Shown piece after piece: positions 1-48,083 of a stretch of 64,000 nucleotides of DNA. This DNA comes from a virus, in the IMG/VR virus record IMGVR_UViG_3300032224_000591, positions 62,001 to 126,000 of that record; one strand, given 5' to 3'. The position numbers and the translations under genes are program-made. The stretch's first letter is position 1, and every line of letters begins with the position of its first letter. The notes under the pieces were generated by a model. The model worked only from the letters and a program-made list of their open reading frames with translations, did no database searches and had not been told where the DNA came from.

Positions 1-1
1 T

Positions 2-859
2 GATTATGAATATGTTGTGTTATGTTACTCTGGTGGTATAGACTCTACTACAATACTTGAAGCCTTTTACTACAACAATATTCATATTGATGAGATATTA
101 GTAGTAGGTGCATTCTCTCAGGATAAGTTTGAAGGTGATGACACCAATCATAATGGTGACATCTACTACAATGTCTATCCTACGCTGAAGACAATGGATC
201 TTCCAAACACTAAAATTACCATTAAAGACTACACTGATTATTTTGTAGATCCTAATAACTTTAGTCTAATCAAAGAATATGGTGATGACTTTAGTAAATT
301 CTTAGGTTCATATACTAGTGTACACAATCTATTCTGGTATGACTTAAAGAAATTCATATCACTACCAGATAAGAAGGCTTGTTATATTATGGGGTCTGAT
401 AAACCTAGACTAGCATTTCATTATGAAAATAGAAAATTCTTTACTCAGATAAATGACAATGCTGTAACTGACTATGGTGCAGCTATGTTTGATGATAACT
501 TTACTAGGGTCAATTTCTATACACATCCAGATGCCCAAGAGATCATGCGTAAGCAGCTTCATATGATGATGCATTATTATATGCAGCAGGTCCTAGCAAC
601 TCAACGGATGACTCATGATGATTATGATAAACACTATATAGCTATAGCAGATGCAATAATATATAACCTTAGAAATCCTCTGCAATTTAAGTCAAAGAAG
701 TCTTCAATTGCATGCTTAAGTATAAGGGATACGTTTATACTAGATAAGCAAGACTCTAAAATGTTTCAGTTATATAAAGATTCATTGACTAGGATAGATA
801 AAAAAGTAGCTATACCTAGAACTGGATTTAGGACTAAAGCATATTACATCACGGAATGA
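2..859 (+). CDS. PP-loop ATPase, asparagine-synthase-like (5' truncated by window edge)
   Basis: The frame is open to the left edge, so the true start lies outside the window. Near the edge it reads YVVLCYSGGIDS, the SGGxDS pyrophosphate-binding loop of N-type ATP pyrophosphatases (asparagine synthase C-domain, QueC and relatives). These enzymes adenylate a carboxyl or carbonyl group before amine transfer. A second block, MGSDKPR at about residue 130, matches RGxEKP in the two longer paralogues at 3413 and 5930. No glutaminase domain is visible. It is the first of four PP-loop genes in 7 kb and is AT-rich. The superfamily is clear; the substrate is unknown. Confidence 0.7.
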   Translation, partial: DYEYVVLCYSGGIDSTTILEAFYYNNIHIDEILVVGAFSQDKFEGDDTNHNGDIYYNVYPTLKTMDLPNTKITIKDYTDYFVDPNNFSLIKEYGDDFSKFLGSYTSVHNLFWYDLKKFISLPDKKACYIMGSDKPRLAFHYENRKFFTQINDNAVTDYGAAMFDDNFTRVNFYTHPDAQEIMRKQLHMMMHYYMQQVLATQRMTHDDYDKHYIAIADAIIYNLRNPLQFKSKKSSIACLSIRDTFILDKQDSKMFQLYKDSLTRIDKKVAIPRTGFRTKAYYITE

Positions 860-862: not shown

Positions 863-1330
863 ATGGATTATCTTTTCTATTTCCTTTTATGGACATTCAT
901 GATATATTGGATGCATAGGTTAGTACATGTGGTTCCCTACGTAAGTAAGATCCATGGTGACCATCATGCCCAAGTATCACAGGAGACGATCCGTGGACTT
1001 CACTGGACGAACCTGTTTCTATTCTTTGATAGCTGGAAGAGTACTGCAGACCAATGGATCACTGAAGTTATTCCAACATTCATCTTGTGTTATATTACTG
1101 GACAGTGGTGGTTAATGATTTCTTACTATATCTGGGCAGCACTGATCCAAGAGTCTATTGAACACAATGAGAAGTTTGACTTGTACCCATTCATCACCAG
1201 TGGTAGATGGCATTTAATTCATCATAGAGATCCTAATTCAAACTATGGTGTATTCTTTCCTATTTGGGATGTATTATTTGGAACTTGGAAGGGAATAGAT
1301 GGCAACGTACAAAAATTGGTTCAGAAGTAA
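863..1330 (+). CDS. Fatty acid hydroxylase / sterol desaturase-superfamily membrane protein
   Basis: A 155-residue protein with a hydrophobic N-terminus and central membrane segments. The histidine clusters of the di-iron membrane hydroxylases are present: HRLVH near residue 19, HGDHH near 32, an isolated HN pair near 113 and HLIHH near 132. The family hydroxylates or desaturates lipids, carotenoids or sterols in the membrane with two irons. It is shorter than most members, about 200-300 residues, but the motif set looks complete. It starts 3 nt after the PP-loop gene and overlaps the next gene by 32 nt, so all three are probably cotranscribed. The substrate is unknown; host lipid A or envelope lipid is a possibility. 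Confidence 0.7.
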   Translation: MDYLFYFLLWTFMIYWMHRLVHVVPYVSKIHGDHHAQVSQETIRGLHWTNLFLFFDSWKSTADQWITEVIPTFILCYITGQWWLMISYYIWAALIQESIEHNEKFDLYPFITSGRWHLIHHRDPNSNYGVFFPIWDVLFGTWKGIDGNVQKLVQK

Positions 1331-2135
1331 TATCAGTGCGCGGACAGATCAAGCGTTTGACCTTGATGTTACTATAAAGAAGATTGATCAGTGGAACCTT
1401 GATACTCCATGGGATAAAGCTTCTGAGAACGTAGTAAAGCTTATAACTGACCTTGATAAGCCGATCTTTATTGGTTTAAGCGGTGGTATAGATTCAGAAT
1501 ATGTGTGTACTGTATTTGAAGAGGCTGAAGTCGATTATACTCCTGTACTCATTAGAACACAAGGTAATAAAGCCGAGTTAGAATATGCTTATAGCTTCTT
1601 AGGTAGATGGGGCCGATATGATAAGGCAGTAATAGTTGACAAGAAGAATGTCGACATGCTATCTACCTACTACTATAAATTACTTACCGGCTGTTTTGGT
1701 TATGGTTATAATTCTGTAGCAACGTATATGGTCGGTGAGTATGCAAAACAGAATGATGGTATATATGTTATGGCTGAACACCTGATTGATGATTATGATA
1801 CAGGTGGGTTTAAGGTAGGTTGTAATGAGTGGGACTTCTATAATGACTTGCTTTTAGGTGAGGACAATACACACTACTTCTTCAACTATACACCTGAGAT
1901 TAGTGCTGCTATGATTAGAGAATTCCCTGATTATAGTGATATACAGAAGTCTAAAGCAGAGTTCTATGGTCTAAAGTATAGACTAAAGATGCACTATGAA
2001 TATGATGAGCTTTATAATGATACATTAATGAAGCTTAGAAAGACTATAAAGCTTACACATAATCCAAATTATACATTTGGAACACCAAAAGAATACTTAA
2101 GAATGCTATCAGAGGTGCAAGATGAATCAACCTAA
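1299..2135 (+). CDS. PP-loop ATPase family protein
   Basis: 278 residues with a PP-loop GLSGGIDSEY at about residues 60-69, preceded by a short helical N-terminus. It has no glutaminase domain and is shorter than the paralogues at 3413 and 5930. A purine-rich GGAAGGGA precedes the ATG inside the end of the hydroxylase gene. It overlaps the next gene by 14 nt, indicating tight coupling. ATP-dependent activation of a substrate is inferred from the motif; the product is unknown. Confidence 0.65.
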   Translation: MATYKNWFRSNISARTDQAFDLDVTIKKIDQWNLDTPWDKASENVVKLITDLDKPIFIGLSGGIDSEYVCTVFEEAEVDYTPVLIRTQGNKAELEYAYSFLGRWGRYDKAVIVDKKNVDMLSTYYYKLLTGCFGYGYNSVATYMVGEYAKQNDGIYVMAEHLIDDYDTGGFKVGCNEWDFYNDLLLGEDNTHYFFNYTPEISAAMIREFPDYSDIQKSKAEFYGLKYRLKMHYEYDELYNDTLMKLRKTIKLTHNPNYTFGTPKEYLRMLSEVQDEST

Positions 2136-3006
2136 AGTACAAATAGGTAATGAGCAAACTCTACTGGAGACAAAGGAAAACCTTAAGTCATTAAGGGCAT
2201 ATAGTGCTGAGTATGCTTGGGGCAGTGACCTCTATACTGACTTTGAGAAAGCTTATGGTAAGTATCTATTAGTTCCATTTGATATTCCAAAGATTGTACC
2301 AAATGATACCAATAAATTTGTGTCATTCTGGTTCACCAGGGCCGCTAATGCTGTTAAGATTAAAACTGATATGCTTAGTAAAGATGGCGTTGGTACCGGT
2401 ACTAGTTCTCCATATCTACAGATAACTAGTACATCTGATAAGCATTCAGATGTCTGGAGCGATAATCCAGTCCCTGACATCTATACTGAGTTTCCGGAAA
2501 TCTTTGAGCAAGTGCATGAATATATGCCATTCATTACGCGCAAAGATTTTAAGTGGTATATGTGGTCATCAAACTGGAATGTGCCACCACACCGTGATTA
2601 TGGTTCACAGCTAGATTGTCCATCAGGTATTCGTATCATGTTGTTTGACAATAATCCAGAACCAACTTTAAGCATGACCGTATCACCTATAGGTAAGGTA
2701 TATGATCGTAAGTATCCTATTATTGTACCTGATGATACCAATAGTTTTGCTTGGAATAACCTTCGTCAGAAGCATGAGAGTGTATACAATAAAGGTCACC
2801 GAAAGGTGTTGTTTATTATCTCCCCAAAAGAGTTAACCTATTTTCTTAGCACTGTTGACAACAGAAAGACTATCAATAAATATGTTGATCTTCTGGACAG
2901 AAGCATAGCTAAATATAAAGATCATGTTATTGTAGATACAGATAATGACTATACAGACTACTTGGCATTGGATAAATCTGACCCAATAAATAGCATTATC
3001 AGATAG
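2122..3006 (+). CDS. Putative double-stranded beta-helix (2OG-Fe(II)-like) oxygenase, paralogue A
   Basis: 294 residues. The central PPHRDYG supplies an HxD pair, and about 70 residues later NSFAWNNLRQKHES followed by HRKVLF supplies a distal His and a basic residue, the order expected for an HxD...H cupin-type oxygenase. The protein at 57715-58503 is a clear paralogue, sharing the KxYGKYL.VP.D.PKI, FPEIFEQ..EYMP, DTNSFAWNNLR and KYVDLLDRS..KYKDH blocks. No family name is recognised, and the metal-site assignment is inference. AT-rich like its neighbours. Confidence 0.4.
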   Translation: MNQPKVQIGNEQTLLETKENLKSLRAYSAEYAWGSDLYTDFEKAYGKYLLVPFDIPKIVPNDTNKFVSFWFTRAANAVKIKTDMLSKDGVGTGTSSPYLQITSTSDKHSDVWSDNPVPDIYTEFPEIFEQVHEYMPFITRKDFKWYMWSSNWNVPPHRDYGSQLDCPSGIRIMLFDNNPEPTLSMTVSPIGKVYDRKYPIIVPDDTNSFAWNNLRQKHESVYNKGHRKVLFIISPKELTYFLSTVDNRKTINKYVDLLDRSIAKYKDHVIVDTDNDYTDYLALDKSDPINSIIR

Positions 3007-3017: not shown

Positions 3018-3395
3018 ATGGCTGTTTACATCCATCACTACATTCATAAGTCTTCAAACAATACCTTTAATGGTAGGCAAGAGATGAATGCCTCGCAGCA
3101 ACTCGCTTATACAAACTGGAATGAATACTGTGTTCAAGTTCAACCGGGTTGGGTATCAACCGACGGGCCTATCGATATTGATGAAAATACTAGAAAGATA
3201 ACATACACTATCGATATGCAATCATATGATTTTATTAATCCACATGTTACTGATTTTTGGAAGAATACTCATGATGAAAATAATCAATACTATGCTGCAT
3301 ATAAAGCAGCATTTTCAGGTAGACTAAATCATAAATTCAGAGTCACTATTGAAAAAGATGGTGTAGAGACAGACTTTATTCCTCTTCCAGCTTAG
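3018..3395 (+). CDS. Hypothetical protein
   Basis: 125 residues, soluble, with no signal peptide or membrane segment. It is rich in aromatic residues and Asn and is not recognised. AGGAGA lies upstream of the ATG at good spacing. It precedes the PP-loop gene at 3413 exactly as the 136-residue unknown at 5530 precedes the PP-loop gene at 5930, so it may be the first member of a repeated small protein/PP-loop/TctC cassette. Confidence 0.6.
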   Translation: MAVYIHHYIHKSSNNTFNGRQEMNASQQLAYTNWNEYCVQVQPGWVSTDGPIDIDENTRKITYTIDMQSYDFINPHVTDFWKNTHDENNQYYAAYKAAFSGRLNHKFRVTIEKDGVETDFIPLPA

Positions 3396-3412
3396 TAAAA
3401 TGTTAGTATATT

Positions 3413-4615
3413 ATGAATCAACTACATTGTGGTTACTATACGTATAATGATAAAATCTATATTTCAAGAAGATCACTTCTTGATGATATAATTGCAGATA
3501 AAAGAAATTATGGTCTAGAGCATGATGTTCAATTTAATTTTAATGATGAAGTATTCAGCAAGTTAGATTGGACAGTTGAACCAGAAATTCCTTTAAAGAC
3601 TCTCTATAAAGACAGAGCACAACAGCTTAGGGATACATACGAGTATCTTATTCTTAGCTATTCAGGTGGTTCTGATTCACATGAAGTATTAAATATATTC
3701 TTAGAGAATGGTATCTTCATCGATGAAATACAGGTGGTTCATCAGTATAAATTAGTCAAAGCTTTACCTAAGAGTGTAATGGATGAAGATCCAGCTCTTA
3801 GAATGTGGTTAGAATTTGAGAAAGTAGCAGCTCCCGCACTACTTAAAGTAAAACAAGTCAGTCCAAATACTAAGCTTACTCTACTCGATGCATCTGACTT
3901 TATTGTTGATGATCTTACTACAAAGAAGTATGCATTTCTTGGACTAGATAAATTTGATACAAATGCTACATTCCTTGTTAGTACTACTCCATTTGCTAGA
4001 AACTACTTTCAACATCAGCATAATAGTAAGGTAACTACTTCTAGTAAGAAGACAGGATTTATACGAGGAACAGAGAAACCAAATCTTAAGATGTATCGTA
4101 ATACATTAAAGTTTAGCTTTACTGATGCTACAATGCATGGTATTAATCTCCTTCAGAATAGGGATATGAATGAGATATATAATATTGAAAATTTCTTTTG
4201 GTCTCCGGATGTTCCGTTGATACCTATCAAACAATCACATATTATTAAGAATGTTCTTGAGAATGACTCGTTATTCTATGCTCAATTCATGATCGCTCAA
4301 GAAAAAGCAATCATGCATACTGAGACAAATAAAAGAGGTATGTCAGGAGAGCAAGACTTTCAAAGAAAATATATTAAGTATATCTACTCATATGGAGATG
4401 AAATTAAATTTATAGCTCCTAAGAGAACATTAATATCACCTGAATTTGTAGCTACTGGGATACTGTTTGGCGAGACATCACATCATGATGCTCTCAAAGA
4501 ACAAAAGACTTTCTACAATACTAAGTATAAATCGATCGATGATCCTCGACTTCTAAATAGATCTATAGACTCAACTCGTTATGAAATTGGAGAGATAAAT
4601 GCAAAATGGAATTAA
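3413..4615 (+). CDS. PP-loop ATPase, asparagine-synthase-like, long form
   Basis: 400 residues. N-terminal domain of about 75 residues, then the PP-loop LILSYSGGSDS at about 79-89. A TKLTLLDASDF block follows at about 160, RGTEKPN at about 220 and FFWSPDVPLIP.KQSH at about 262. The protein at 5930-7141 shares every block. This resembles the synthase half of asparagine synthetase without the glutaminase half, so it may use free ammonia or another amine. It overlaps the downstream TctC gene by 17 nt. Reaction and substrate are unknown. Confidence 0.65.
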   Translation: MNQLHCGYYTYNDKIYISRRSLLDDIIADKRNYGLEHDVQFNFNDEVFSKLDWTVEPEIPLKTLYKDRAQQLRDTYEYLILSYSGGSDSHEVLNIFLENGIFIDEIQVVHQYKLVKALPKSVMDEDPALRMWLEFEKVAAPALLKVKQVSPNTKLTLLDASDFIVDDLTTKKYAFLGLDKFDTNATFLVSTTPFARNYFQHQHNSKVTTSSKKTGFIRGTEKPNLKMYRNTLKFSFTDATMHGINLLQNRDMNEIYNIENFFWSPDVPLIPIKQSHIIKNVLENDSLFYAQFMIAQEKAIMHTETNKRGMSGEQDFQRKYIKYIYSYGDEIKFIAPKRTLISPEFVATGILFGETSHHDALKEQKTFYNTKYKSIDDPRLLNRSIDSTRYEIGEINAKWN

Positions 4616-5504
4616 GGGTGCAGTAGCTGGCTTGATGATGATTGGTTCTGCCTCGGCGGCAGAGCAGGTATCTATTATCACAAGCATTCCAACATCTGGG
4701 TCTGGTGGGCAGATCGGTGTCGGCATCACGCAGATTTTGAATAAGGTCCAAACAGAGCGTGAGTATAAGTTCTCACAGATTCCTGGAGCGCAGGGTGATA
4801 CATCAGCGCTAAAGGTATTAGTAGATGCTAAGCTTCAGAATGTAGTAATGTTCAACGGCATCTCCGTGACTACTACAAATCGATTGCTGAACCCAAACGC
4901 TGGATTCGATCGTGATAAGGACTTCATTCAGAGTGTAGGTATTGGTAAGAACTACTATGCCATTATGGTTAACCCTGACTCGCCTATCAAGAACGTTGAT
5001 GACCTAGTGAAGTCGATCAAGAGTAAACCAAAGGCTTTCTTCTCGACCACCCTCACTGCTCCAGGTTCCGTTATCATCAATGACATCTTCCTGAAGAGGT
5101 ATGGAATCACTGATAAGGTTGACTCTATCAATTATAAGTCACCTCAAGATATTATCCTTGCACTGAACAACAAAGAGTCAGACTATACCATCTTCACGGT
5201 TTCTGATATGACTAATCTGAAGGCTATCATGGTATCGTCAGAGAAGCGTTTGATCCAGTTCCCTGACGCACCTACAGCCAAGGAAGCCGGGTTTGATGCA
5301 TTCTCACTATCATCTATTCTGATGTTCTCTATTCCTAAAGAGCGTGCTAGTTTTCAGAAGACCTTTGAGGATGATATGAAGAAGGCTTGTGCTCACCCTG
5401 ACTATGAGCGTGTTGCCATGATTCGTGCTCCTTACAGGTCAGAGTGCATGACACCGGCTGATACTATGGCAACAGTTGTAAACGAACTTAAGACGATCAG
5501 ATAA
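4599..5504 (+). CDS. TctC/Bug-family periplasmic solute-binding protein
   Basis: 301 residues with a Sec signal peptide ending near SASA/AE at about residue 21. The mature part follows the tripartite tricarboxylate transporter receptor (Bug) pattern: PGAQGDTSALK near 63, NPDSPIKNVDDLVKSIK near 125, FPDAPTAKEAG near 225 and a C-terminal Cys pair. Bug proteins bind organic acids or amino-acid-like ligands in the periplasm and pass them to TctA/TctB, neither of which is present here. It is the first of three TctC-like genes in the window. GGAGAG precedes the ATG inside the PP-loop gene. Confidence 0.75.
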   Translation: MQNGIKGAVAGLMMIGSASAAEQVSIITSIPTSGSGGQIGVGITQILNKVQTEREYKFSQIPGAQGDTSALKVLVDAKLQNVVMFNGISVTTTNRLLNPNAGFDRDKDFIQSVGIGKNYYAIMVNPDSPIKNVDDLVKSIKSKPKAFFSTTLTAPGSVIINDIFLKRYGITDKVDSINYKSPQDIILALNNKESDYTIFTVSDMTNLKAIMVSSEKRLIQFPDAPTAKEAGFDAFSLSSILMFSIPKERASFQKTFEDDMKKACAHPDYERVAMIRAPYRSECMTPADTMATVVNELKTIR

Positions 5505-5507
5505 ATA
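5500..5507 (+). promoter_or_regulatory. Putative T4-type late promoter box (GATAAATA)
   Basis: An ATAAATA core sits 23 nt before the gene at 5530 and overlaps the stop region of the first TctC gene. It matches the boxes ahead of the capsid and tail genes and would start the second cassette (5530-8079). Confidence 0.5.
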
Positions 5508-5529
5508 TTATCAGAAATGGGGGATCTTC

Positions 5530-5940
5530 ATGGTAATTTTAAGACGAATTTATACTAAAAATGACGGTGAAGATTGGAGAGGTGTATGGGTACCAGGTGA
5601 ACATACTGACCCACGCGACTCTAGCATTTTTGATGAGACAGAAGTTCAGCATATTCGTCAATTTAATGATCCAAGAAACTTTGTAGGATATAGTAAATTC
5701 ATACGTAAGTATGCTACTGATAATGAGTTAGTGTTTGACCTATATTTTGACACCCTTGAAAATGCACGTGTGTATTATAAAGCGTGTAGAGATAACCTTA
5801 ATACACCACTTAACACACTTATTCATGAGAAAATTGTTGATAATATGATTCCAGTTTATCAGAAAATATGGAAATTATACAGTATTGAAAATAATATTGA
5901 ATTTGAGTTTCCATTGACCTCAAAAGGATATGTACCGTAA
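5530..5940 (+). CDS. Hypothetical protein
   Basis: 136 residues, soluble, no recognised domain. It begins with a beta-rich stretch (MVILRRIYTKNDG) and ends in a helical segment. It is the first gene after a late-type promoter box and leads the second cassette. Its stop overlaps the start of the following PP-loop gene. Confidence 0.6.
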   Translation: MVILRRIYTKNDGEDWRGVWVPGEHTDPRDSSIFDETEVQHIRQFNDPRNFVGYSKFIRKYATDNELVFDLYFDTLENARVYYKACRDNLNTPLNTLIHEKIVDNMIPVYQKIWKLYSIENNIEFEFPLTSKGYVP

Positions 5941-7141
5941 TATTATGAATCATGATTATGATCAGCTGCATCTAGGTTATTACATATATGATAACCAGAA
6001 GTTCTTAACCCGTGAGGGTGCTTTAGATATGATGTTAGCTAAAGAGGATTATGAAGGTAATATCCAATTTTATTATAATGATCATATCTTTGATAAGATG
6101 AATTGGCGTATAAATTCTTCAATTTCAATATCAACATTCTATAAAATGCGAGCGCAGCAGCTAAGAGACAAGTACAAGTATCTTATTCTGAGATACTCAG
6201 GTGGAAGTGATTCTACACAGGTGCTAGAATCATTCCTAAAGAATAAAATCTTCCTAGACGAGATAGTAGTCATTAACCATCAGAAAGCGATCAATAATCT
6301 AGATCGAACTATGATGCTTAATGACCCTACTCTTAGTGAGTATTTAGAGTATGAAATGGCTGTAGTACCACAGCTAAAGAGGGTTAAAGAGCTCAGCCCC
6401 AATACTAAGATTACTATATTGGATTCATCTGACAATTTAATTGATCAGTTGGGCAATAAAAAGTATGAGCATCTAGGTAAGAATGATGAGCCTCGATCTT
6501 TAAGATATGTTGTTGGTGGATTGATGAAGAACTGGACACCGGTGCTTATCAAGTATGAACAACAAACAGCAACTAAAGAAGGTGTAGCCGTTATCCGCGG
6601 TTTAGAGAAACCATATATTAAGATTACTGATAGAGGTAAAATTTTATTTTCTTTTTATGACATCACAATGACTGCTACACTGTCTATGCAAAAGTCTGGA
6701 TCACCATACACTATTGAAGACTTTTTTTGGTCACCTGACTATCCACTTATTCCAGCTAAACAGGCACATATGATCGTTGATGCTCTCTCTAAGAATGAGG
6801 CACTGTTCAATGAATGGAAATCTATAAAGGCTATGATTCATCAGGCATGGCTTGATCCTGAATTAAAAAGTTCACCTGGATATATCCTAGATAGATGGTA
6901 TAATAAAATCATCTATCCAGATTGGAATCCAACTACATACGTAGCACCAAAACCTACAAAAATAAGTGCTGATTCTAAACTAGTTAGTACATTAGGTATA
7001 CAACATAATACTTTAGACTTTACGATTGAGTATTCTGAATATAAAAAGAAGCGCTACGAGAAGATAGTAAATAAGCAGCTACTTAACAGGTATATCTTCT
7101 CAAGAACCTATTATCTGGGTGAATTTCAACCACAATTCTGA
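5930..7141 (+). CDS. PP-loop ATPase, asparagine-synthase-like, long form (second copy)
   Basis: 403 residues, a paralogue of 3413-4615 along its whole length: LHLGYY.YDNQ at the N-terminus, LILRYSGGSDST near residue 88, TKITILDSSD near 160, RGLEKPY near 223 and FFWSPDYPLIPAKQAH near 265. The first ATG has AAGGA only one base away. An in-frame ATG at 5945 gives an N-terminus closer to the paralogue, so the start is uncertain. The next TctC gene begins 8 nt after the stop, completing a second cassette. Confidence 0.65.
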   Translation: MYRNIMNHDYDQLHLGYYIYDNQKFLTREGALDMMLAKEDYEGNIQFYYNDHIFDKMNWRINSSISISTFYKMRAQQLRDKYKYLILRYSGGSDSTQVLESFLKNKIFLDEIVVINHQKAINNLDRTMMLNDPTLSEYLEYEMAVVPQLKRVKELSPNTKITILDSSDNLIDQLGNKKYEHLGKNDEPRSLRYVVGGLMKNWTPVLIKYEQQTATKEGVAVIRGLEKPYIKITDRGKILFSFYDITMTATLSMQKSGSPYTIEDFFWSPDYPLIPAKQAHMIVDALSKNEALFNEWKSIKAMIHQAWLDPELKSSPGYILDRWYNKIIYPDWNPTTYVAPKPTKISADSKLVSTLGIQHNTLDFTIEYSEYKKKRYEKIVNKQLLNRYIFSRTYYLGEFQPQF

Positions 7142-7149
7142 GGATTATA

Positions 7150-8079
7150 ATGAGAGCTTTAATACTTGCATTATCGATGATAGTGACAAATGCTGCATAT
7201 GCAGCCAAACAAATCGACATCTACTCTATGTTCTCGCCGGGTGCAGCGGGTACTATCATCGGTTACGAAGTAGTCAATAGGCTTAACACTGTACAGAGTG
7301 AGTATGAGTTTCGACTATCATCACTACCTGGTGCTGGTGGAGATATTGCCGCACTAAGAGTAATTGCACTAGCACGTACCGGTCAAGATGTTCTAATATG
7401 GCAGGGAACCGGTAGCTATACATTTGGTAAGTATACCTCTGCAAATATTAATGCATATGACCGTGATAATGATCTAGTACCTATTGCTTCATTCTCAGGT
7501 ACACCATTTCATTTAATGGTTGAACCAGATTCTGAGTTAAAAACATTAGCTGACCTAGTAAGTCAGTTTAATAAGAAGGACGTTGTTTACTTTGGTAGTA
7601 CAGCAACAAATCCGATAACACCATTCCTTAATGCTATCTTCATGAAGAGCAATGGCTTAAAGCCTTCGAAGGATCTAAACTATACAACACCATTTGATAT
7701 TACTAAAAGTGTCCTTAGTAAGGAATCTGAATATACTATATTCTCACCAACAGATGTTAGAGGTTTAAGATCACTAGTTATGTCAGGCCCAGAAAGATCT
7801 AGACTATATCCAAATGTACCTACAGGTAAAGAGCTTGGGATGAAAGACTTTGTCTTTACATCAACAATGCAGATTGCAGTTCCTAAGGAGAAGTCTGAGT
7901 TCGGTCTTAAGTTTACACGGATGATGCTTCAAATCTGCTATGACCAGAAGTTCAATGATGCTGTTGAAAAGATTGGATACGAAACAAAATGCCTCTCCGG
8001 CGATAAGCTAAAGAGCTCAATCAAAGAAGAGGCATTGATGATTAAAAAGTATGAAAACGATGTTGTCTGGAAGCCTTAA
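7150..8079 (+). CDS. TctC/Bug-family periplasmic solute-binding protein (second copy)
   Basis: 309 residues with a signal peptide ending near AYA/AK at residue 19. Bug-type blocks are PGAGGDIAALR near 62, EPDSELKTLADLV near 126 and YPNVPTGKELG near 222, with Cys in the C-terminal part as in the 4599 copy. It is clearly homologous to 4599-5504 but diverged. Its 3' end overlaps the convergent oxygenase gene at 8076 by 4 nt, and no terminator hairpin is visible between them. The ligand is unknown. Confidence 0.75.
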   Translation: MRALILALSMIVTNAAYAAKQIDIYSMFSPGAAGTIIGYEVVNRLNTVQSEYEFRLSSLPGAGGDIAALRVIALARTGQDVLIWQGTGSYTFGKYTSANINAYDRDNDLVPIASFSGTPFHLMVEPDSELKTLADLVSQFNKKDVVYFGSTATNPITPFLNAIFMKSNGLKPSKDLNYTTPFDITKSVLSKESEYTIFSPTDVRGLRSLVMSGPERSRLYPNVPTGKELGMKDFVFTSTMQIAVPKEKSEFGLKFTRMMLQICYDQKFNDAVEKIGYETKCLSGDKLKSSIKEEALMIKKYENDVVWKP

Positions 8080-8690
8080 ATAAACTTAGGTCCAACAACC
8101 CAAACCACGATCGACTTACGTGTTCCACTGGTTACTGGTGTAACACGGTGTCCAATAAATGAAGGGAAGAGAACACATCTTCCCTTTTTTCTTTCAATTG
8201 TAATTGGCTCATCTTGATTACCATCACATACCTGGAAATCACCACCCTCAAAATCATCATTCAGCATTAGTGTCAATGATAGTTTGCGCGTATCGTGCAT
8301 GTTTTGTGGCATATGTCCAAACCCCATATCCATATGCCAGTTATACTCACCTAATTCTGCTGCATCATATGTAGTGTATTGAAATGTTTCATAACCATTT
8401 AGATTAAAGTTATAGTACATCTCATTAATGCTTTGAACAACAAAATTCAACTTATCAAAGATCCAAGATGTTTCTGGATTTCTCATGTGAAATTTAATAT
8501 TTGACTTACGAACCTTTTCAGTAACTTCTTGATCACCTGAGAAAGTAGTACCTCGCTCTGTTCCTTGAGCATCACACCAAGCAATAAGTGTATTAAGCTC
8601 TTCTTCAGTAAATGCGTCATCCCAATATGTCCACGCATGTGTGATACGTGCACGGCGATATGGATCGTTATACAGTGTTGTATATGTCAT
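8076..8690 (-). CDS. PKHD-type 2OG-Fe(II) oxygenase
   Basis: 204 residues. The iron site reads HMDMG (HxD) near 119, followed by FPSFIGHRVTPVTSGTRKSI near 175, giving the distal His and the 2OG-binding Arg. This is the layout of PiuC/YbiX-like hydroxylases. Reaction class: Fe(II)- and 2OG-dependent hydroxylation of an unknown substrate. It is the last gene of a three-gene minus-strand operon, and its start overlaps the stop of the gene at 8687. Confidence 0.7.
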   Translation of the reverse strand: MTYTTLYNDPYRRARITHAWTYWDDAFTEEELNTLIAWCDAQGTERGTTFSGDQEVTEKVRKSNIKFHMRNPETSWIFDKLNFVVQSINEMYYNFNLNGYETFQYTTYDAAELGEYNWHMDMGFGHMPQNMHDTRKLSLTLMLNDDFEGGDFQVCDGNQDEPITIERKKGRCVLFPSFIGHRVTPVTSGTRKSIVVWVVGPKFI

Positions 8691-9376
8691 TTGCGGAAAA
8701 TTCTCCAGTTATATGATGGTTGAATACCGGTAGGCTTTGCCTCAATTTTTCTATAGGTAAAGAATATATCACCAGCAAGGCAGACACGCTTCTTCTTTAG
8801 ATCATCCAAACACTTACAGCCTTCATCAAGCTCTGAGTTGCCATAACCTACAGTATGATGGCTGAGTCTAGCTGGGAATACAAATAGATTGCCTTCACTT
8901 GGAGCAAATCCAGTGTCGTATGCGTTAAACTTATTCTTCTCTGTCGAGTTGAACCTAATCATGCCATAGTATGGGTCGTTCATATGTGGTGGTGTAGATG
9001 AGAAGACAATAGGCTTCTCTAACTGATCGGGTATATTAGCATAGTAGGTGAATGACAGATGAGCATCCTCATGACTGTGGAAAGGTGTATGTCTCTCCTT
9101 GGTAATATTCATCCATGTCTTGACAATGTTAATGTCAAATGTTTCAGGATCAATAGCAAGTGTATGAAGGTACTCCTCAACTACTCCTGTGATATATCCA
9201 AAAAGTGGTGCAAATGCTTCCTCATGATGAATATTGACATGTCCAGTATACTCATTCGAGTAACCTTCGATCGTCATATAGTTCATCAGCTTGCTTAGAA
9301 AGATAGGCTTAAACTTATCAGCATCCCTATACTGATCTTCAATAACGAGAGTTGGGAACAGCGCATGTCTAATCAT
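8687..9376 (-). CDS. 2OG-Fe(II) oxygenase-like protein (TIGR02466-like)
   Basis: 229 residues. PFHSHEDAHLSFTYYANIP near 99 and LFVFPARLSHHTVGY near 165 give the proximal and distal His groups of a phage oxygenase family that is often annotated as putative 2OG-Fe(II) oxygenase. The same pattern occurs at 52036. It overlaps both neighbours by 4 nt, so translation is coupled. Target unknown. Confidence 0.6.
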   Translation of the reverse strand: MIRHALFPTLVIEDQYRDADKFKPIFLSKLMNYMTIEGYSNEYTGHVNIHHEEAFAPLFGYITGVVEEYLHTLAIDPETFDINIVKTWMNITKERHTPFHSHEDAHLSFTYYANIPDQLEKPIVFSSTPPHMNDPYYGMIRFNSTEKNKFNAYDTGFAPSEGNLFVFPARLSHHTVGYGNSELDEGCKCLDDLKKKRVCLAGDIFFTYRKIEAKPTGIQPSYNWRIFRK

Positions 9377-10332
9377 CTATTTGCCTCATTCAACTTTTTC
9401 AGTTCACCTGCAAATTGGCCACCTATCTTAATTTGATACGTAACCAGTTTTTCTGCTTCATTATAATCAATCATATTCACTTCAACGTTCATCTTCATAG
9501 CCTCAGCTAGATAATCAGGGTCGGCTAGGGCTTTCTTGAATGCTTCACGTAGTTCATCTCTAGTCCATGGCGGAATACCCGGCGGCGCAACAAATGGTCT
9601 TAGCATTGAGTAGCTTGCCTCTACAATAGATAGTATTGTTTTGTCCATATCTGATTGTACTACCTCTGCAAGGGTTTGTACATCTTTATATTCAGGATGC
9701 CTATTAGTTCCATTGCCAAATTGCATGCATGCCTTAATACCTGAGTCTGGCTTTAACCAGTGTGGCTTTTGAGTCTTAATACCGACTAAGTTATAGACTA
9801 CGGCATCAACCTCTTTTCTCTCAAGTGCAAGTCTAGCATCACCGGTCGTAGCATAACCGGTGACGATCTTAGCATCTAGCTTAGCTAGGTCACGAACAAG
9901 GAAGGCTGGATTCACACCGGCATAGTTCTCAGAGCCGATGATCTTTGGATTATCAGTATTACACCATACGATGACCGCATCCTTACGGCCATCAACGTTA
10001 GATCCGATCCAGGTGAACTTACTAGCATCATACTGAACATTAGGTCCACCGAGAGCGCCGACTAATGGAATCTCTTTATAGAACGTACCAATGACTGATC
10101 CATCCTTAGGTGCGTGATTATATAGGTAGTTAGCTGCAACCATACTTGCTGCTCCAGGCATAGACTGGATAATAAGTGTAGGATGATTAGGGTGATGCTT
10201 AACTAGGTACTTACCGAGGACTCTGGCATTGATATTATAACTATCGTTGTCAGATGGGACAATAATCTTTAAGGTGTCTGCCGCAACTGATGTGACCATT
10301 AGGGTCAAAGCGAGGGCAATCGCTCGAAACAT
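9373..10332 (-). CDS. TctC/Bug-family periplasmic solute-binding protein (third copy)
   Basis: 319 residues with a signal peptide ending near SVAA/DT at residue 19. The MPGAASMVAANYLYN block near 57 is the Bug signature PGAgg..aan.l. Unlike the two + strand copies it keeps the APKDGSVIG segment typical of bacterial TctC, so it may be an independent acquisition. First gene of a minus-strand operon with two Fe/2OG oxygenases. GGAGA precedes the ATG, and a TATAAATA box lies 40 nt upstream on the minus strand. Confidence 0.75.
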   Translation of the reverse strand: MFRAIALALTLMVTSVAADTLKIIVPSDNDSYNINARVLGKYLVKHHPNHPTLIIQSMPGAASMVAANYLYNHAPKDGSVIGTFYKEIPLVGALGGPNVQYDASKFTWIGSNVDGRKDAVIVWCNTDNPKIIGSENYAGVNPAFLVRDLAKLDAKIVTGYATTGDARLALERKEVDAVVYNLVGIKTQKPHWLKPDSGIKACMQFGNGTNRHPEYKDVQTLAEVVQSDMDKTILSIVEASYSMLRPFVAPPGIPPWTRDELREAFKKALADPDYLAEAMKMNVEVNMIDYNEAEKLVTYQIKIGGQFAGELKKLNEANR

Positions 10333-10371: not shown

Positions 10372-10379
10372 TATTTATA
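10372..10379 (-). promoter_or_regulatory. Putative late promoter for the minus-strand TctC operon (TATAAATA)
   Basis: The plus strand reads TATTTATA, so the minus strand carries the exact T4 late consensus, 40 nt before the TctC start at 10332. With the box at 10347 it forms a divergent late pair. Confidence 0.6.
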
Positions 10380-10388: not shown

Positions 10389-11129
10389 ATGGCCGCCATT
10401 TCATCAAGAGACGACTTTAAGAAATATTGCCTCCGTAAGCTAGGTGCACCCGTCATTGAGATCAATGTGGATGATGACCAGATCGAGGATCGTGTTACCG
10501 AAGCTATTAGCTACTATTGGGACTATCACTTTGATGGTGCCGAGAAGACTTACTACAAGGCACAGATTACCCGTACTGACATCACAAACAAATATATCAC
10601 AATCCCTGATAATATTATTGGTGTTGTCAACCTATTCCCAATTGGGAACTCATTGAATGTAAACAATCTCTTTAATATCCGTTATCAGATTGCATTAAAT
10701 GATCTATACACATTAACCTCTCAGAGCATGGTGCCATATGTTATGGCCATGCAACACATTCAGTTCCTAGAGCAGATCCTAGTTGGTCAGCAGCCTCTTC
10801 GCTATAACCGTATTATCGGTAAGTGTTACATCGATATGGATTGGACTATTGTCAATCCAGGCGACTTCTTAATCCTTGAAGCTTATCAAGTTGTTGATCC
10901 AGAGATATTCACCAAAGGCTATAATGAACGTTGGCTTCAGAACTATGCTACAGTCCTTATCAAGGAACAGTGGGGAGGTAATATGAAGAAGTTCGAAGGT
11001 ATGACTCTCCCAGGTGGACTAAAGTTTAACGGTCAGAAGATCTATGATGAAGCTCGTCAAGAGCGACTAGCAATGGAGCAAGAAATGATTACTGGCTTCA
11101 GCATGCCTGTTTACGATATGATCGGCTAA
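10389..11129 (+). CDS. 13: Neck protein gp13
   Basis: 246 residues; T4 gp13 is about 309. Together with gp14 it forms the neck that closes the filled head and receives the tail. The acidic N-terminus DDFKKYCLRKLGAPVIEINVDDDQIEDRVTEA and the YWDYHFDG block are typical of the T4-like gp13/cyanophage neck family. First gene of a tightly packed operon gp13-14-15-16-17, behind a late box. Confidence 0.8.
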   Translation: MAAISSRDDFKKYCLRKLGAPVIEINVDDDQIEDRVTEAISYYWDYHFDGAEKTYYKAQITRTDITNKYITIPDNIIGVVNLFPIGNSLNVNNLFNIRYQIALNDLYTLTSQSMVPYVMAMQHIQFLEQILVGQQPLRYNRIIGKCYIDMDWTIVNPGDFLILEAYQVVDPEIFTKGYNERWLQNYATVLIKEQWGGNMKKFEGMTLPGGLKFNGQKIYDEARQERLAMEQEMITGFSMPVYDMIG

Positions 11130-12674: not shown

Positions 12675-13096
12675 ACGCAAATAATGATCCGTTAGGCGCT
12701 GCGCTTAACCTGACTCCATTAGCTACTGATAATGCAGTTAAATCTATAGTCGCCAAAGCACATGATGATAGTGCAAAAAATGACTTCGAGATGGCACGAT
12801 CAAACATCCATGAAGTTATTCAGAATGGTACATATGCTATTGAGAAGCTATCACAGATTGCTGATCAGAGCCAGCATCCTAGAGCTTTTGAGGTTCTAGC
12901 AACACTCATGAAGACAATGCTTGATGCTAATAAGGACTTACTTGACCTACAGAAGAAGATCCGTGAAATCTCTTCTGCTGATGCACCAACCAATGAAGCA
13001 GCTAAACAAGTGACGAATAACCTATTTGTTGGTTCTACTGCAGACCTTCAGAAAGTCATTGAGGACATGAAGAATGGTGGATCTAAGACAGCTTAA
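12671..13096 (+). CDS. 16: Terminase small subunit gp16
   Basis: 141 residues; T4 gp16 is 164. Mainly helical, with a central coiled-coil region (residues about 35-105) suited to ring oligomers. Placed directly before gp17, which it overlaps by 23 nt. Recognises concatemeric DNA and regulates the motor. Identity rests on position and size as well as sequence. Confidence 0.8.
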   Translation: MNANNDPLGAALNLTPLATDNAVKSIVAKAHDDSAKNDFEMARSNIHEVIQNGTYAIEKLSQIADQSQHPRAFEVLATLMKTMLDANKDLLDLQKKIREISSADAPTNEAAKQVTNNLFVGSTADLQKVIEDMKNGGSKTA

Positions 13097-14720
13097 GGGC
13101 TATAACGGCAATAATAACTTAAAGCGATCACGACAGTCGATTGAGTGGACACCCGACCTGGTTAGCGAATACATTAAGTGTTCTGATGATCCGATCTACT
13201 TTATTGAAACCTATATGAAGATCATCAATATCAATGATGGTCTGGTAAGCTTCAAGCTATATGACTATCAGAAAGAGATGGTCTTAGCTATGAAGGAGAA
13301 TCGCTTCAATATCATCGCAACGGCTCGTCAGGCCGGTAAGTCGACGGTAACCTGCGGATTTATCCTTTGGTATATCATCTTTCATTCAGATAAGACCGTT
13401 GCACTGCTTGCTAACAAGGGTGAAACAGCTCGAGAGATTCTTGGCCGTGTTCAGTTGGCCTATGAGCATCTTCCCCGTTGGCTGCAGCATGGTGTTGTTG
13501 AGTGGAACAAGGGTTCATTTGAGCTTGAGAATAACTCGAGAGTTATCGCAGCAGCTACCTCTAAATCAGGTATTCGTGGTTACTCCATCAACCTACTATT
13601 CATCGATGAGGCTGCATTCATCGAGAACTGGGATGACTTCTTCACATCGGTATACCCTACCATCTCGTCTGGTAAAGAATCTAAAGTCATCCTCGTATCA
13701 ACACCAAATGGTTTGAATCACTTCTACTCTCTATGGATCAATGCCCGTGAGCAGAGAAATGGGTATAAACCTATTCAGGTTATGTGGGATGCTGTTCCTG
13801 GACGTGATGAACAATGGAGACAAGATACACTAGCCTCGATGAACTTTGACACAGAAAAGTTTGACCAGGAATATTGTGTTGAATTCATGGGTTCATCTGG
13901 CACACTTATCGCTGGTTGGAAGCTCAAGGAGCTTGTCCATCAGGTGCCTATCGTCTTAAAGCAAGGTCTATCACAATACGTCCTTCCTGAGAAGGGTCAC
14001 TCATATGTCATCATGGCAGACGTGTCCCGTGGTAAGGGATTAGACTACTCTGCTTTCCATATCATTGACGTCACAAAGATGCCATATAATCAGGTATGCG
14101 TCTATAGGAATAACTCAATTACGCCTTTAGACTACGCTGCTATTATCCATAAGATGGCCATGGCCTATAACCAAGCTTCTGTTATGGTTGAAATCAACGA
14201 CATTGGTGAGCAGGTTGGCCAATCACTACACTTTGATTACGAGTATGAAGGTGTCTTGTTGACTGAATCAGCTGGTAGAGCCGGCAAGAGAGTCACGCTT
14301 CGAAGCAGTGGACCATCAGTTGATTGGGGTATCAGAACAACAAAGAATGTTAAAGCTGCAGGTTGCTCTATCATTAAGCTGCTAATAGAACAGAATCAGT
14401 TGATCATTAATGACTTCCATACAATCGAGGAGCTAGCAACTTTCTCTCGTAAGCTTAACAGCTATGAGGCCGAAGAAGGTAAGCACGATGATCTTGTCAT
14501 GGGGCTTGTGCTGTTTGGTTGGTTATCCGATCAACAATACTTCAGAGAATACACAGACATAAATACACTACAGAGACTACGTGAGAAGTCAGAAGAAGAG
14601 ATCATGGATGATATGCTTCCATTCGGTTTCATCGATGACGGCAGAGACGACGTTATCGAACAACTCGAGTTGCCAAGGGGCAACTGGCTGGTGTCTGATA
14701 TAGAGAACGAGTTTTTATAA
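13074..14720 (+). CDS. 17: Terminase large subunit gp17 (packaging ATPase-nuclease)
   Basis: 548 residues; T4 gp17 is 610. ATPase domain: Walker A ARQAGKST near residue 85 and Walker B LLFIDEAAF near 180. RNase H-like nuclease: MADVSRGKGLDYSAF near 314 and HDDLVMGLVLFGW near 472, giving the acidic metal-binding residues. Drives DNA into proheads and cuts at headful. No intron or homing insert is seen. Confidence 0.95.
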   Translation: MVDLRQLKGYNGNNNLKRSRQSIEWTPDLVSEYIKCSDDPIYFIETYMKIININDGLVSFKLYDYQKEMVLAMKENRFNIIATARQAGKSTVTCGFILWYIIFHSDKTVALLANKGETAREILGRVQLAYEHLPRWLQHGVVEWNKGSFELENNSRVIAAATSKSGIRGYSINLLFIDEAAFIENWDDFFTSVYPTISSGKESKVILVSTPNGLNHFYSLWINAREQRNGYKPIQVMWDAVPGRDEQWRQDTLASMNFDTEKFDQEYCVEFMGSSGTLIAGWKLKELVHQVPIVLKQGLSQYVLPEKGHSYVIMADVSRGKGLDYSAFHIIDVTKMPYNQVCVYRNNSITPLDYAAIIHKMAMAYNQASVMVEINDIGEQVGQSLHFDYEYEGVLLTESAGRAGKRVTLRSSGPSVDWGIRTTKNVKAAGCSIIKLLIEQNQLIINDFHTIEELATFSRKLNSYEAEEGKHDDLVMGLVLFGWLSDQQYFREYTDINTLQRLREKSEEEIMDDMLPFGFIDDGRDDVIEQLELPRGNWLVSDIENEFL

Positions 14721-46566: not shown

Positions 46567-46641
46567 TGGCGCATAGCTCAGTGGTAGAGCACTGTCCTGA
46601 TAAGACAGGGGTCGATGGATCGTAACCATCTGTGCCAACCA
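46567..46641 (+). tRNA. tRNA-Ile(GAT)
   Basis: Acceptor TGGCGCA/TGTGCCA, D-stem GCTC/GAGC, anticodon stem CTGTC/GACAG with loop CTGATAA, T-stem GATGG/CCATC, A73, encoded CCA. The T-loop starts AUCG rather than UUCG. Confidence 0.85.
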
Positions 46642-46791
46642 GAGTGTGGTTGCTGGTGACTCGTTGTGGAACCAGCAAACTTATCAATAGTAGTGGTTCG
46701 AAACGCTGCTATCTGAGAATACACCGGTGCGCTACGTACTCGGCGAAACACCAAAAGGGTGGGGTAAGAGCCCCAATGAGTATGGAAATTC

Positions 46792-46867
46792 GGACCGTTA
46801 GCTCAGCTGGTAGAGCAGGAGACTCTTAATCTCTTTGTCGTAGGTTCGATCCCTACACGGTTCACCA
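46792..46867 (+). tRNA. tRNA-Lys(CTT)
   Basis: Acceptor GGACCGT/ACGGTTC, anticodon loop CTCTTAA, T-arm GTAGG-TTCGATC-CCTAC, A73, encoded CCA. Confidence 0.92.
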
Positions 46868-46877
46868 AATAGAATAT

Positions 46878-46953
46878 GGGGACATAGCTCAGTTGGGAGA
46901 GCGTCTGATTTGCATTCAGAAGGTCTGCGGTTCGATCCCGCATGTCTCCACCA
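46878..46953 (+). tRNA. tRNA-Ala(TGC)
   Basis: Acceptor GGGGACA/TGTCTCC, anticodon stem TCTGA/TCAGA with loop TTTGCAT, A73, encoded CCA. The Ala identity pair G3-U70 is present. Confidence 0.93.
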
Positions 46954-46960
46954 AGTTCAG

Positions 46961-47050
46961 GACTAACAGAGGAAGCAAATGGTTACCCTCTGTGAATGAC
47001 AATAAGATGCTGGGAAACCCGATAAATCCAACCATGGAGTGCATCTAGTC
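46961..47050 (+). ncRNA. Structured spacer RNA candidate (three-way junction)
   Basis: Nested complementarity: GACT/AGTC (46961 and 47047), ACAGAGG/CCTCTGT (46966 and 46987), AGATGC/GCATCT (47005 and 47041). Between tRNA-Ala and tRNA-Thr; no ORF. Confidence 0.3.
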
Positions 47051-47179
47051 AAGATTCTGAAACAGTGTGTGGTTACTGGTGACACTCCTAAGCTGTAGGA
47101 ACCTTACTAACTATAGAGTCGCGTACGGGATGGTGTGGCTTGGCGAGGCCTGTGTACACAACATCATCCCAACTAATTC

Positions 47180-47255
<76 letters not shown>

Positions 47256-47262
47256 AAGGCAA

Positions 47263-47338
47263 ATAGCATCAGGTTCCAACCTGATCCAAGGGATTCGCGA
47301 GTCCCTGCTCAACGGTTGTCAGTGACGATGGGTGCTAT
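47263..47338 (+). ncRNA. Cloverleaf-like structured spacer RNA candidate
   Basis: A closing stem ATAGCA/TGCTAT (47263 and 47333) encloses hairpins ATCAGG/CCTGAT, AGGGA/TCCCT and a weaker GTC/GAC. About tRNA length, but without tRNA consensus in the D or T positions. Lies between tRNA-Thr and initiator tRNA. Confidence 0.35.
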
Positions 47339-47357
47339 CGGAACTGTCAAAGTTTAT

Positions 47358-47432
47358 CGCGGAGTGGAGAAGCAGAATCTCGTTTGGCTCATACCCAAAA
47401 GATCGTCGGTGCAATTCCGACCTCCGCAACCA
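47358..47432 (+). tRNA. Initiator tRNA-fMet(CAT)
   Basis: C1-A72 mismatch (CGCGGAG against CTCCGCA), D-stem GAGA/TCTC, loop CTCATAC, T-stem GTCGG/CCGAC, A73, CCA. Closely follows the bacterial initiator pattern; the anticodon stem has two of the three G-C pairs. Confidence 0.9.
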
Positions 47433-47454
47433 ATATAGAAGACAGGAGATTGAT

Positions 47455-47754: not shown

Positions 47755-47761
47755 GGTTTGA

Positions 47762-47837
47762 TTCCCGATAGCTCAGCTGGTAGAGCGTCTGACTGTTAAT
47801 CAGAATGTCCGTGGTTCGAGCCCACGTCGGGGAGCCA
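47762..47837 (+). tRNA. tRNA-Asn(GTT)
   Basis: Acceptor TTCCCGA/TCGGGGA, loop CTGTTAA, T-arm CGTGG-TTCGAGC-CCACG, G73, CCA. Confidence 0.92.
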
Positions 47838-47841
47838 ATTC

Positions 47842-47960: not shown

Positions 47961-48008
47961 TCCGCGTAAAGGGAGAATGCTGGATGGCAGTAACCAGCGG
48001 CGAAATTT

Positions 48009-48083
48009 GATCCCATCGATTATCGGTTAAGTCACCTGCCTGTCACGCAGGAGTGAGGGGTTCGATTCCCCTTGGGATCGCCA
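48009..48083 (+). tRNA. tRNA-Asp(GTC)
   Basis: Acceptor GATCCCA/TGGGATC, stem CCTGC/GCAGG, loop CTGTCAC, G73, CCA. Confidence 0.93.

Follow-up and report, generated by a model that had tools for sequence, protein, structure and literature searches.

The window analysed here, a stretch of 64,000 nucleotides within a 167,756-base viral record, carries two consecutive gene cassettes at positions 3018-8079, each with the order small protein, PP-loop protein of about 400 residues and TctC-type binding protein, and all six of the open reading frames claimed for this region in the original prediction were recovered in place. The cassettes and the genes that surround them are as follows.

1..859, plus strand: PP360, third PP-loop gene of the PP_A/PP_B family, overlapping the window start (record position G000:C1:61813-62856)
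863..1330, plus strand: fatty-acid-hydroxylase-superfamily protein, 155 aa (PF04116, E 4e-17)
1299..2135, plus strand: PP280, PP-loop protein of a separate family, 278 aa (SGGIDS)
2122..3006, plus strand: U294, conserved island protein (ORF)
3018..3395, plus strand: SM1, cassette A, 125 aa (ORF)
3413..4615, plus strand: PP_A, PP-loop ATP-pyrophosphatase-like protein, cassette A, 400 aa (SGGSDS and predicted fold)
4599..5504, plus strand: Bug_A, TctC/Bug-type solute-binding protein with Sec leader, cassette A, 301 aa (PF03401)
5530..5940, plus strand: SM2, cassette B, 136 aa (ORF, AlphaFold2 model)
5930..7141, plus strand: PP_B, PP-loop ATP-pyrophosphatase-like protein, cassette B, 403 aa (SGGSDS, likeness to PP_A)
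7150..8079, plus strand: Bug_B, TctC/Bug-type solute-binding protein with Sec leader, cassette B, 309 aa (PF03401)
8076..8690, minus strand: 2OG-Fe(II) oxygenase, 204 aa (PF13640, E 2e-16)
8687..9376, minus strand: 2OG-Fe(II) oxygenase family 5, 229 aa (PF13759, E 1e-9)
9373..10332, minus strand: Bug_C, more distant TctC-like exported protein, 319 aa (PF03401, E 1.3e-5, below cut-off)
10389..11129, plus strand: gp13 neck-protein gene, right island border (position and likeness to T4-like phages)

The cassettes are part of a variable island in a T4-like phage, whose terminase (13074-14720) shows 57% identity to Sinorhizobium phage phiN3. The island is bounded on the left by a Gly-rich tail-fibre adhesin (L004 17745-19313), with PP360 starting at about L004:19789, and on the right by gp13, which is the conserved downstream neighbour in 15 loci; the fatty-acid-hydroxylase-superfamily gene is a constant member of the island, and its family is present in 26 loci. 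Neighbouring cassette genes overlap by 17 nt (PP_A/Bug_A) and by 11 nt (SM2/PP_B). The PP-loop/TctC gene set is larger than originally predicted, including also PP360, PP280 (weak matches to NAD synthetase/GMP synthase), Bug_C and a fourth PP-loop gene that adjoins a porin elsewhere in the genome. An HxD...H pattern, judged by eye only, suggests that U294 is a hydroxylase, and the U294 homologue of L010 gave no Pfam match. As for transcription, the putative late-promoter element TATAAATA upstream of Bug_C (minus strand, 10379-10372) is confined to the window and two relatives, L010 and L011, and sigma-70-like sites were no more frequent than in shuffles.

The SGGSDS loop is present in both PP_A (residues 84-89) and PP_B, and across 92 relatives the residues S84, G85, G86, D88, D104 and K222 (PP_A numbering) are invariant, while S89 of the loop is kept in at least 90% of the sequences. 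The AlphaFold2 model of PP_A (pLDDT 94.0, pTM 0.93) has mainly ATP-pyrophosphatases as its top PDB matches, comprising GMP, Asn, NAD and carbapenam synthetases and LarE; these matches are weak (best E 8e-4, TM at most 0.34), and for this reason the chemistry of the enzyme is not readable from the fold. Neither PP_A nor PP_B reached a Pfam, NCBIfam or PADLOC family above cut-off, no glutaminase domain was detected in the PP-loop proteins, and the PP profile found no match among PDB sequences. Because no Pfam family was reached, the assignment is built on the SGGSDS motif together with the predicted fold; on these grounds PP_A and PP_B are placed in the PP-loop ATP-pyrophosphatase superfamily, and the fold originally claimed is borne out by the confident model (pLDDT 94) and the intact SGGxDS loop. 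The modelled enzyme, which is virus-specific, probably activates small molecules using ATP.

With the Pfam cut-off for PF03401 (TctC) at 27 bits, Bug_A (49.0 bits) and Bug_B (43.7 bits) score above it and Bug_C (21.5 bits) below. The leader of Bug_A ends SASA-AEQ, and Sec-type leaders with an AxA-type site are found on all full-length TctC proteins of the set, as judged from hydropathy and by eye rather than with SignalP. Bug_A and Bug_B retain GAxG, one of the two carboxylate-binding loops of the family. An exported TctC-type protein of this sort probably catches small acids. Bug_A is under strong purifying selection, with a dN/dS of 0.056 relative to L010; a homologue of a host uptake gene is, in other words, kept by selection on a T4-like phage genome (terminase, neck genes), as expected of a virus-borne auxiliary metabolic gene for nutrient uptake. 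A place for TctC in the virion, raised in the original prediction, or in the tail would draw on the structural genes in the neighbourhood only. T4-like virions assemble in the cytoplasm, and since all full-length TctC proteins carry export signals, and members of the family are found both at several sites in the genome and in contigs of 100-374 kb, a virion role is unsupported and is considered very improbable.

The small proteins SM1 and SM2 show no likeness to one another by BLAST, and the profiles of their families match (hhalign probability 94%, E 2e-7), identifying the two as apparent remote homologues. Relatives of SM1 are found beside PP_A/Bug_A in L010 and L011 and after the Bug gene in L015-L021. 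The AlphaFold2 model of SM2 (pLDDT 83) has mostly ABM, NIPSNAP, LsrG and SnoaB folds as its best PDB matches (E 0.004 and weaker), and SM2 is thus probably a dimeric alpha+beta-barrel with a fold like that of antibiotic-biosynthesis monooxygenases.

The two cassettes were originally described as a duplication. The paralogy of both pairs is confirmed by identities of 39% over 402 aa for PP_A and PP_B (E 3e-81) and 31% over 296 aa for Bug_A and Bug_B (E 3e-49), and the repeated order likewise stands. A recent tandem copying in place is, however, ruled out by the gene relationships, because A and B represent deep lineages and cassette B is common, as a unit, to phages with a different backbone. 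Thus, PP_B is 69% and 63% identical to its counterparts in L038 and L028, yet only 38-39% identical to the second PP protein of L010 and L011, and Bug_B shares 80% identity with L038 and 48% with L028.

The search for PP-loop genes beside TctC in other phages, proposed with the original prediction, showed that many further phage contigs have the pairing. With this result and the confidently predicted PP-loop fold, neither of the refuting conditions set with the original prediction came about. Of 60 TctC genes in 49 viral records, 39 lie within 600 bases of a PP gene, compared with 6.7 under random placement (maximum of 15 in 1000 placements); in records of at least 50 kb the figure is 19 of 32 (2.0 by random placement). 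Starting from the phage TctC genes instead, a PP gene directly adjoins in 17 of 18 loci, the eighteenth being cut at a contig end. Overlaps occur in 44 of the 59 same-strand pairs and, although gene order and orientation vary between phages, the PP/TctC pair remains joined. The PP tree is in agreement with the TctC tree (Spearman 0.79 for 47 pairs; permutation maximum 0.23), with a shared nearest neighbour in 27 of the 47 pairs (permutation mean 1). The PP-loop gene and that of the exported solute-binding protein therefore form a conserved, often overlapping and co-inherited unit in many uncultivated water-borne phages, the phage of the window included. That unrelated cargo genes were juxtaposed by chance is practically negligible as an explanation: islands of this kind do gather cargo, according to a pelagimyophage study (PMC7029224), but reciprocal adjacency, matching trees and joint inversion and exchange all argue otherwise, and PP360 provides a negative control within the island, the sister subfamily that it represents having a transporter or envelope neighbour in 0 of 13 non-redundant relatives.

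In contrast to PP360, 72 of the 114 non-redundant PP400-like genes have an immediate uptake or envelope neighbour (TctC 53, Porin_2 6, small OMP 5, DctP 4, ABC permease 3, TctA 1). No TctA or TctB gene was found in the 167,756-base record of the window, and in this respect the original statement that a TctA/B permease is lacking holds; it fails for the relatives, two of which (records G035 and G038) have TctA adjoining the PP gene or its TctC. TctA is found beside PP in L078 and together with TctC, Porin_4 and PP in L108, an NMT1-type receptor and an ABC permease lie beside PP in L150/L144, and a porin gene overlaps the PP gene in the genome of the window and in L102. DctP-type proteins, present in 12 records and mostly near PP genes, lack a signal peptide, which makes them a poor fit to simple uptake. 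These partners (porins, outer-membrane barrels, TRAP, ABC, TctA) are parts of the Gram-negative entry path for small solutes.

The variety of partners bears on two further explanations. If the PP-loop enzyme placed an amide-type modification on a co-encoded exported protein or on the collagen-like adhesin, this would account for how very tightly a single cytoplasmic enzyme is coupled to a single exported protein, and likewise for the radical SAM-SPASM proteins and 2OG oxygenases near the cassettes, both of which are often protein-modifying. The partner folds are, however, unrelated (TctC, porin, eight-strand OMP, permease, DctP), and no common terminal motif was found among the partner N- and C-termini listed, so that protein maturation of this type appears improbable. 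Still more doubtful is a sensor, in which the binding protein would report on a solute in order to time lysis or lysis inhibition, with the PP-loop protein responsible for making the signal or clearing it. Orphan TctC proteins have been proposed to serve in sensing besides transport (PMC5994714), and most records are without a permease, but the cassette has no sensor partner, and the permeases and porins of the relatives indicate transport.

Much as originally suggested, the best reading is considered to be one that ties the binding of a small molecule to its handling, with each cassette a phage-encoded module for the capture and activation of a solute, a proposal that is quite plausible, if a little short of probable. 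During infection, TctC would be exported to the periplasm, where it would bind a small carboxylate and pass it to a TTT or similar permease of the host; a few relatives would supply their own. A host partner would be needed because most records, that of the window included, carry no permease. The cytoplasmic PP-loop enzyme would then adenylate the same molecule with ATP, leading to an amide, thioamide or similar bond, and the ABM-fold small protein and the neighbouring oxygenases would perhaps act on that compound as well. For a phage with two cassettes, two ligands would be expected. Inheritance of the enzyme and binding protein as a unit suggests that these phages supply a nutrient-scavenging step themselves. 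Besides the lack of a permease in most records, the signal-less DctP proteins and the weak PDB matches of the PP model, the points weighed against a capture module are the second conserved ligand loop of classical Bug proteins, YKG, which reads YKS in Bug_A and YTT in Bug_B, and the position of the island, which matches that of a pelagimyophage island tied to host recognition and coinfection avoidance (PMC7029224).

The same position underlies the alternative of envelope remodelling, in which phage porins, OMPs and binding proteins would replace or jam host envelope proteins needed by other phages, and some compound at the surface would be the substrate that the enzymes (PP-loop, 2OG, hydroxylase) modify. 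The island adjoins tail-fibre adhesin and neck genes, its pelagimyophage counterpart lies between VrlC and gp14, and porins or OMPs stand in for TctC beside PP in several phages. Periplasmic TctC, TctA, ABC permeases and cytosolic DctP are nevertheless no obvious receptors, and the constant ATP-pyrophosphatase-type partner is left unexplained, making this alternative rather unlikely.

Within the searches made, the PP-loop family appears to be nearly restricted to viruses. Among the 50,697 deposited phage records of INPHARED, tblastn found no relative of PP_A, Bug_A or Bug_C, nor of the L062 PP or TctC, the fourth PP or the porin, and a canonical phage TctC (L147) matched only two unannotated faecal contigs at 24-25%. 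A PP profile scan of 84,980 cellular genomes, using a single degenerate pattern that distant cellular relatives could escape, gave one match, L097, a 3-kb contig of a metagenome-assembled genome that holds three PP genes, whole or in fragments, together with a DctP lacking a signal peptide, and that is possibly viral carry-over. PADLOC gave no defence match for ten proteins including PP_A, PP_B, Bug_A, SM1 and SM2, and no description of the PP-loop/TctC pairing was found in the literature. More broadly, and only tentatively, the virus-specific PP-loop branch may be the constant core of a wide-ranging, exchangeable system among aquatic phages, both T4-like and jumbo-sized; in each case it would be coupled to the route by which one solute enters (TTT, TRAP, ABC, porin) and would make an activated compound outside described phage pathways.

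If the capture and activation module is real, aquatic phages would scavenge particular dissolved organic molecules in the course of infection and process them chemically, a common unannotated viral gene family without a match in deposited phage genomes would gain a function, and the ligand of each receptor would predict the substrate of the adjoining enzyme. Known phage uptake genes are mostly single, host-like and for phosphate or nitrogen. Like other members of the TctC/Bug family, Bug_A and Bug_B exceed the PF03401 cut-off and have a Sec leader and the GAxG loop, but they are distant from the solved structures (best E 2e-13, over the C-terminal two thirds) and differ in the altered second ligand loop and the fixed PP-loop gene partner. 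A complete tripartite tricarboxylate transporter would include the TctA and TctB partners that the window's record lacks, and in alpha- and beta-proteobacteria it is normal for TctC receptors to be orphans, with no TctA/B (PMC5994714). The PP proteins share the SGGxDS loop and a Rossmann-like core with Asn, beta-lactam/carbapenam and GMP synthetases and with LarE, differing from these named enzymes in the lack of a detectable glutaminase domain or Pfam/NCBIfam family and in the weak fold scores. The island, which runs from tail-fibre to neck genes and is a hypervariable site of cargo, resembles the host recognition cluster of pelagimyophages and cyanomyophages, for which the terms searched gave no mention of PP-loop/TctC cassettes (PMC7029224). 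In two further reports, tctA or tricarboxylate-transport genes are noted in passing on SUP05 viral contigs (PMC6359870) and on a nirK/norB myovirus scaffold (PMC8115048), as single TTT-type genes with no PP-loop partner described in the passages concerned. Phage-encoded PstS is a periplasmic receptor that could feed a host uptake system (PMC6359870), and AmtB is known from viral contigs together with PII and a porin (PMC8115048). The cassettes resemble PstS-type auxiliary metabolic genes in that the phage codes for a solute receptor or transporter; unlike the PstS and AmtB cases, the receptor is of an organic-acid type and is accompanied by a virus-restricted PP-loop enzyme, and the enzyme family is constant across varying partners (TTT, TRAP, ABC, porin). 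A viral enzyme and organic-acid receptors are inherited jointly and exchanged between phages as cassettes.

The six open reading frames of the two cassettes were recovered from a single strand at the positions originally predicted for them, in a record of 167,756 bases, of which the window takes up 62001-126000. The phage is considered T4-like because its large terminase shares 57% identity with those of the Sinorhizobium phages phiN3 and phiM12. The surrounding island comprises the following features (positions in the window, except for those given for L004, another locus of this genome).

L004 17745-19313: left border of the island, glycine-rich, collagen-like adhesin gene
3018-3395, 3413-4615 and 4599-5504 (+): cassette A, small protein SM1, PP-loop ATP-pyrophosphatase-like PP_A, TctC-type solute-binding Bug_A
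5530-5940, 5930-7141 and 7150-8079 (+): cassette B, SM2, PP_B, Bug_B
8076-9376: two 2OG-Fe(II) oxygenases
9373-10332 (-): Bug_C, a third, more distant TctC-like gene
10389: right border, neck gene gp13
Also in the island: PP360, third PP-loop gene of the PP_A/PP_B family
Also in the island: PP280, a further PP-loop gene
Also in the island: fatty-acid-hydroxylase-family gene
Also in the island: conserved 294-aa protein

The arrangement at the centre of the original prediction, a PP-loop gene beside TctC, recurs in other phage genomes. Scanning IMG/VR, whose contigs may be chimeric or misassigned, with the PP family returned 217 relatives, and among the best 80 of these, which were studied, TctC almost always adjoins PP in the close relatives; adjacency is retained in loci whose pair runs opposite to the remainder of the island (L026-L031) and in those with the order of the two genes swapped (L033-L037). 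Of 60 TctC genes in 49 viral records, 39 have a PP gene no more than 600 bases away, where random placement would give 6.7 (maximum 15 in 1000 trials); restricting the count to records of 50 kb or longer gives 19 of 32, against 2.0 expected. With neighbour families assigned by profiles made from few sequences, an uptake or envelope gene is the immediate neighbour of 72 of the 114 non-redundant PP400-like genes and of none of the 13 members of the PP360 subfamily in the same islands. A scan with phage TctC sequences, biased toward relatives of paired TctC by queries taken from paired loci, yielded 18 loci, with PP directly beside TctC in 17 and the remaining locus cut on that side; its new contigs, some exceeding 340 kb, represent about six separate lineages. 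Furthermore, the genes overlap in 44 of 59 same-strand pairs, and distances in the PP tree correlate with those in the TctC tree (47 pairs, Spearman 0.79, no permutation above 0.23), with the same nearest neighbour in both trees for 27 pairs, against about one by permutation. Common descent of the phages contributes to this agreement, but cassette B shows PP and TctC moving jointly against the backbone.

The cassettes were predicted to be duplicated, and their proteins are indeed related, at 39% identity for PP_A and PP_B and 31% for Bug_A and Bug_B, but duplication in place is disfavoured by the trees and by the contrast with gp13. In the PP and TctC trees alike, cassette B groups with the relatives L038 and L028, and the trees show both cassettes to be old lineages. 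PP_B is 69% and 63% identical to its L038 and L028 counterparts, against 38-39% for the second PP genes of the close relatives L010 and L011, and Bug_B is 80% and 48% identical, against 29% and 42%. Because cassette B thus resembles L038 and L028, while the gp13 backbone resembles L010 (89%) and L011 (87%) rather than L028 (53%), exchange of whole cassettes between phages is the simplest reading. SM1 and SM2 show no likeness by BLAST; their family profiles match (hhalign probability 94%, E 2e-7), and the SM2 model (pLDDT 83) has weak-scoring similarity to ABM/NIPSNAP/LsrG-type proteins, which are dimeric alpha+beta-barrels. The Bug_A start lies inside PP_A (17-nt overlap) and the PP_B start inside SM2 (11 nt). 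In one close relative (L011:8907-10187), a radical SAM-SPASM-like gene, recognised by likeness to an annotated gene of this genome (L006, outside the window), sits exactly between cassettes A and B.

The expected ATP-pyrophosphatase fold is upheld by the PP_A model (pLDDT 94, pTM 0.93), which in the PDB matches GMP synthetase, carbapenam synthetase, asparagine synthetase and LarE, all of them ATP-pyrophosphatases; the matches are weak, and the family is therefore placed as a distinct branch. SGGxD, D104 and K222 are invariant in all 92 family sequences. The best viral matches are uncharacterised proteins from uncultured phages, and the PP proteins reached no curated family. No member was found in 50,697 deposited phage records, and 84,980 cellular genomes held one locus, in a metagenome-assembled genome, on a contig of 3 kb. 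Every full-length TctC protein carries a predicted Sec-type leader, as assessed by hydropathy. By a simple counting method, with synonymous sites saturated in several pairs, dN/dS is 0.056 for Bug_A, similar to gp13 (0.047), and 0.18 for PP_A; selection is thus estimated as strong for Bug_A and weaker for PP_A.

TctC is one of several transport partners of the PP family. An alphaproteobacterial-type porin overlaps a fourth PP gene in this genome and in L102, and suggests an alphaproteobacterial host:

L006:13689-18013 (G000:C1:15689-20013): Porin_2 (E 5e-45), 1-nt overlap with the fourth PP-loop gene, then DUF2061 and a radical SAM-SPASM gene

L102 repeats the layout, as do several of L121-L129 with a radical SAM gene close by. 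Small outer-membrane barrels replace the porin beside PP in L103, L104 and others, a TctA permease gene adjoins PP in L078, and TctA occurs together with TctC and a porin in L108. An NMT1-type receptor and ABC permease precede PP, with overlapping ends, in L150 and L144. Twelve of the 49 records have TRAP-type DctP proteins, mostly close to PP genes; so far as their start sites allow a judgement, these nearly always lack a signal peptide. Such homologues near PP or TctC (L062:10184-11155, L147:7209-8156, L097:505-1461 and others) seem to be cytosolic forms of a periplasmic receptor. Tryptophan-halogenase-family genes lie directly after or near PP (L144:6128-7705, L105:2506-4110), and other PP neighbourhoods contain radical SAM, Rieske, ATP-grasp and nitronate-monooxygenase-like genes; all of these neighbours look as if they were parts of small-molecule pathways.

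Computation establishes the linkage between the genes as well as the export signals, the fold and the selection. In the most likely mechanism, the exported TctC protein would bind a small acid, which would enter through a permease of the host or, in rare cases, of the phage, and be activated with ATP by the PP-loop enzyme for amide- or thio-type bond formation; the SM protein and nearby oxygenases may also process this compound. The chief rival is remodelling of the envelope against coinfection, a coinfection-related role having been put forward for the equivalent island in pelagimyophages (PMC7029224). Solute capture with enzymatic activation is preferred mainly because varied transport partners accompany one enzyme family; what it chiefly leaves uncovered is the existence of DctP proteins without signal peptides.

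The adhesin (L004:17745-19313) consists of GXY repeats followed by a polyglycine-rich part, and shares its island with the two oxygenases (8076-9376); one idea is that these may hydroxylate it. A T4-late-promoter-like TATAAATA lies ca. 40 bases before Bug_C (10372-10379, minus strand), common to L010 and L011 and absent from more distant relatives. In the window, 29 tRNA genes (46567-61311) cover most amino acids. In the relative L009 (12947-15900), CsgF and CsgG (curli secretion) and curlin-repeat and FecR-domain proteins directly follow the island, and CsgF/CsgG-like families are present in 7 loci; curli genes were previously known in pelagimyophages and Melnitz (PMC7029224, PMC9004378).

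Orphan TctC receptors are frequent in alpha- and beta-proteobacteria (PMC5994714). Viral contigs have been recorded as carrying tctA or tricarboxylate-transport genes (PMC6359870, PMC8115048). Literature searches found neither the PP-loop partner nor its pairing with TctC described, and the enzyme side has a fair chance of proving categorically new. Among phage-borne uptake genes, pstS and amtB are already known (PMC6359870, PMC8115048); the present cassettes likewise place candidate uptake genes on phages, together with a PP-loop partner.
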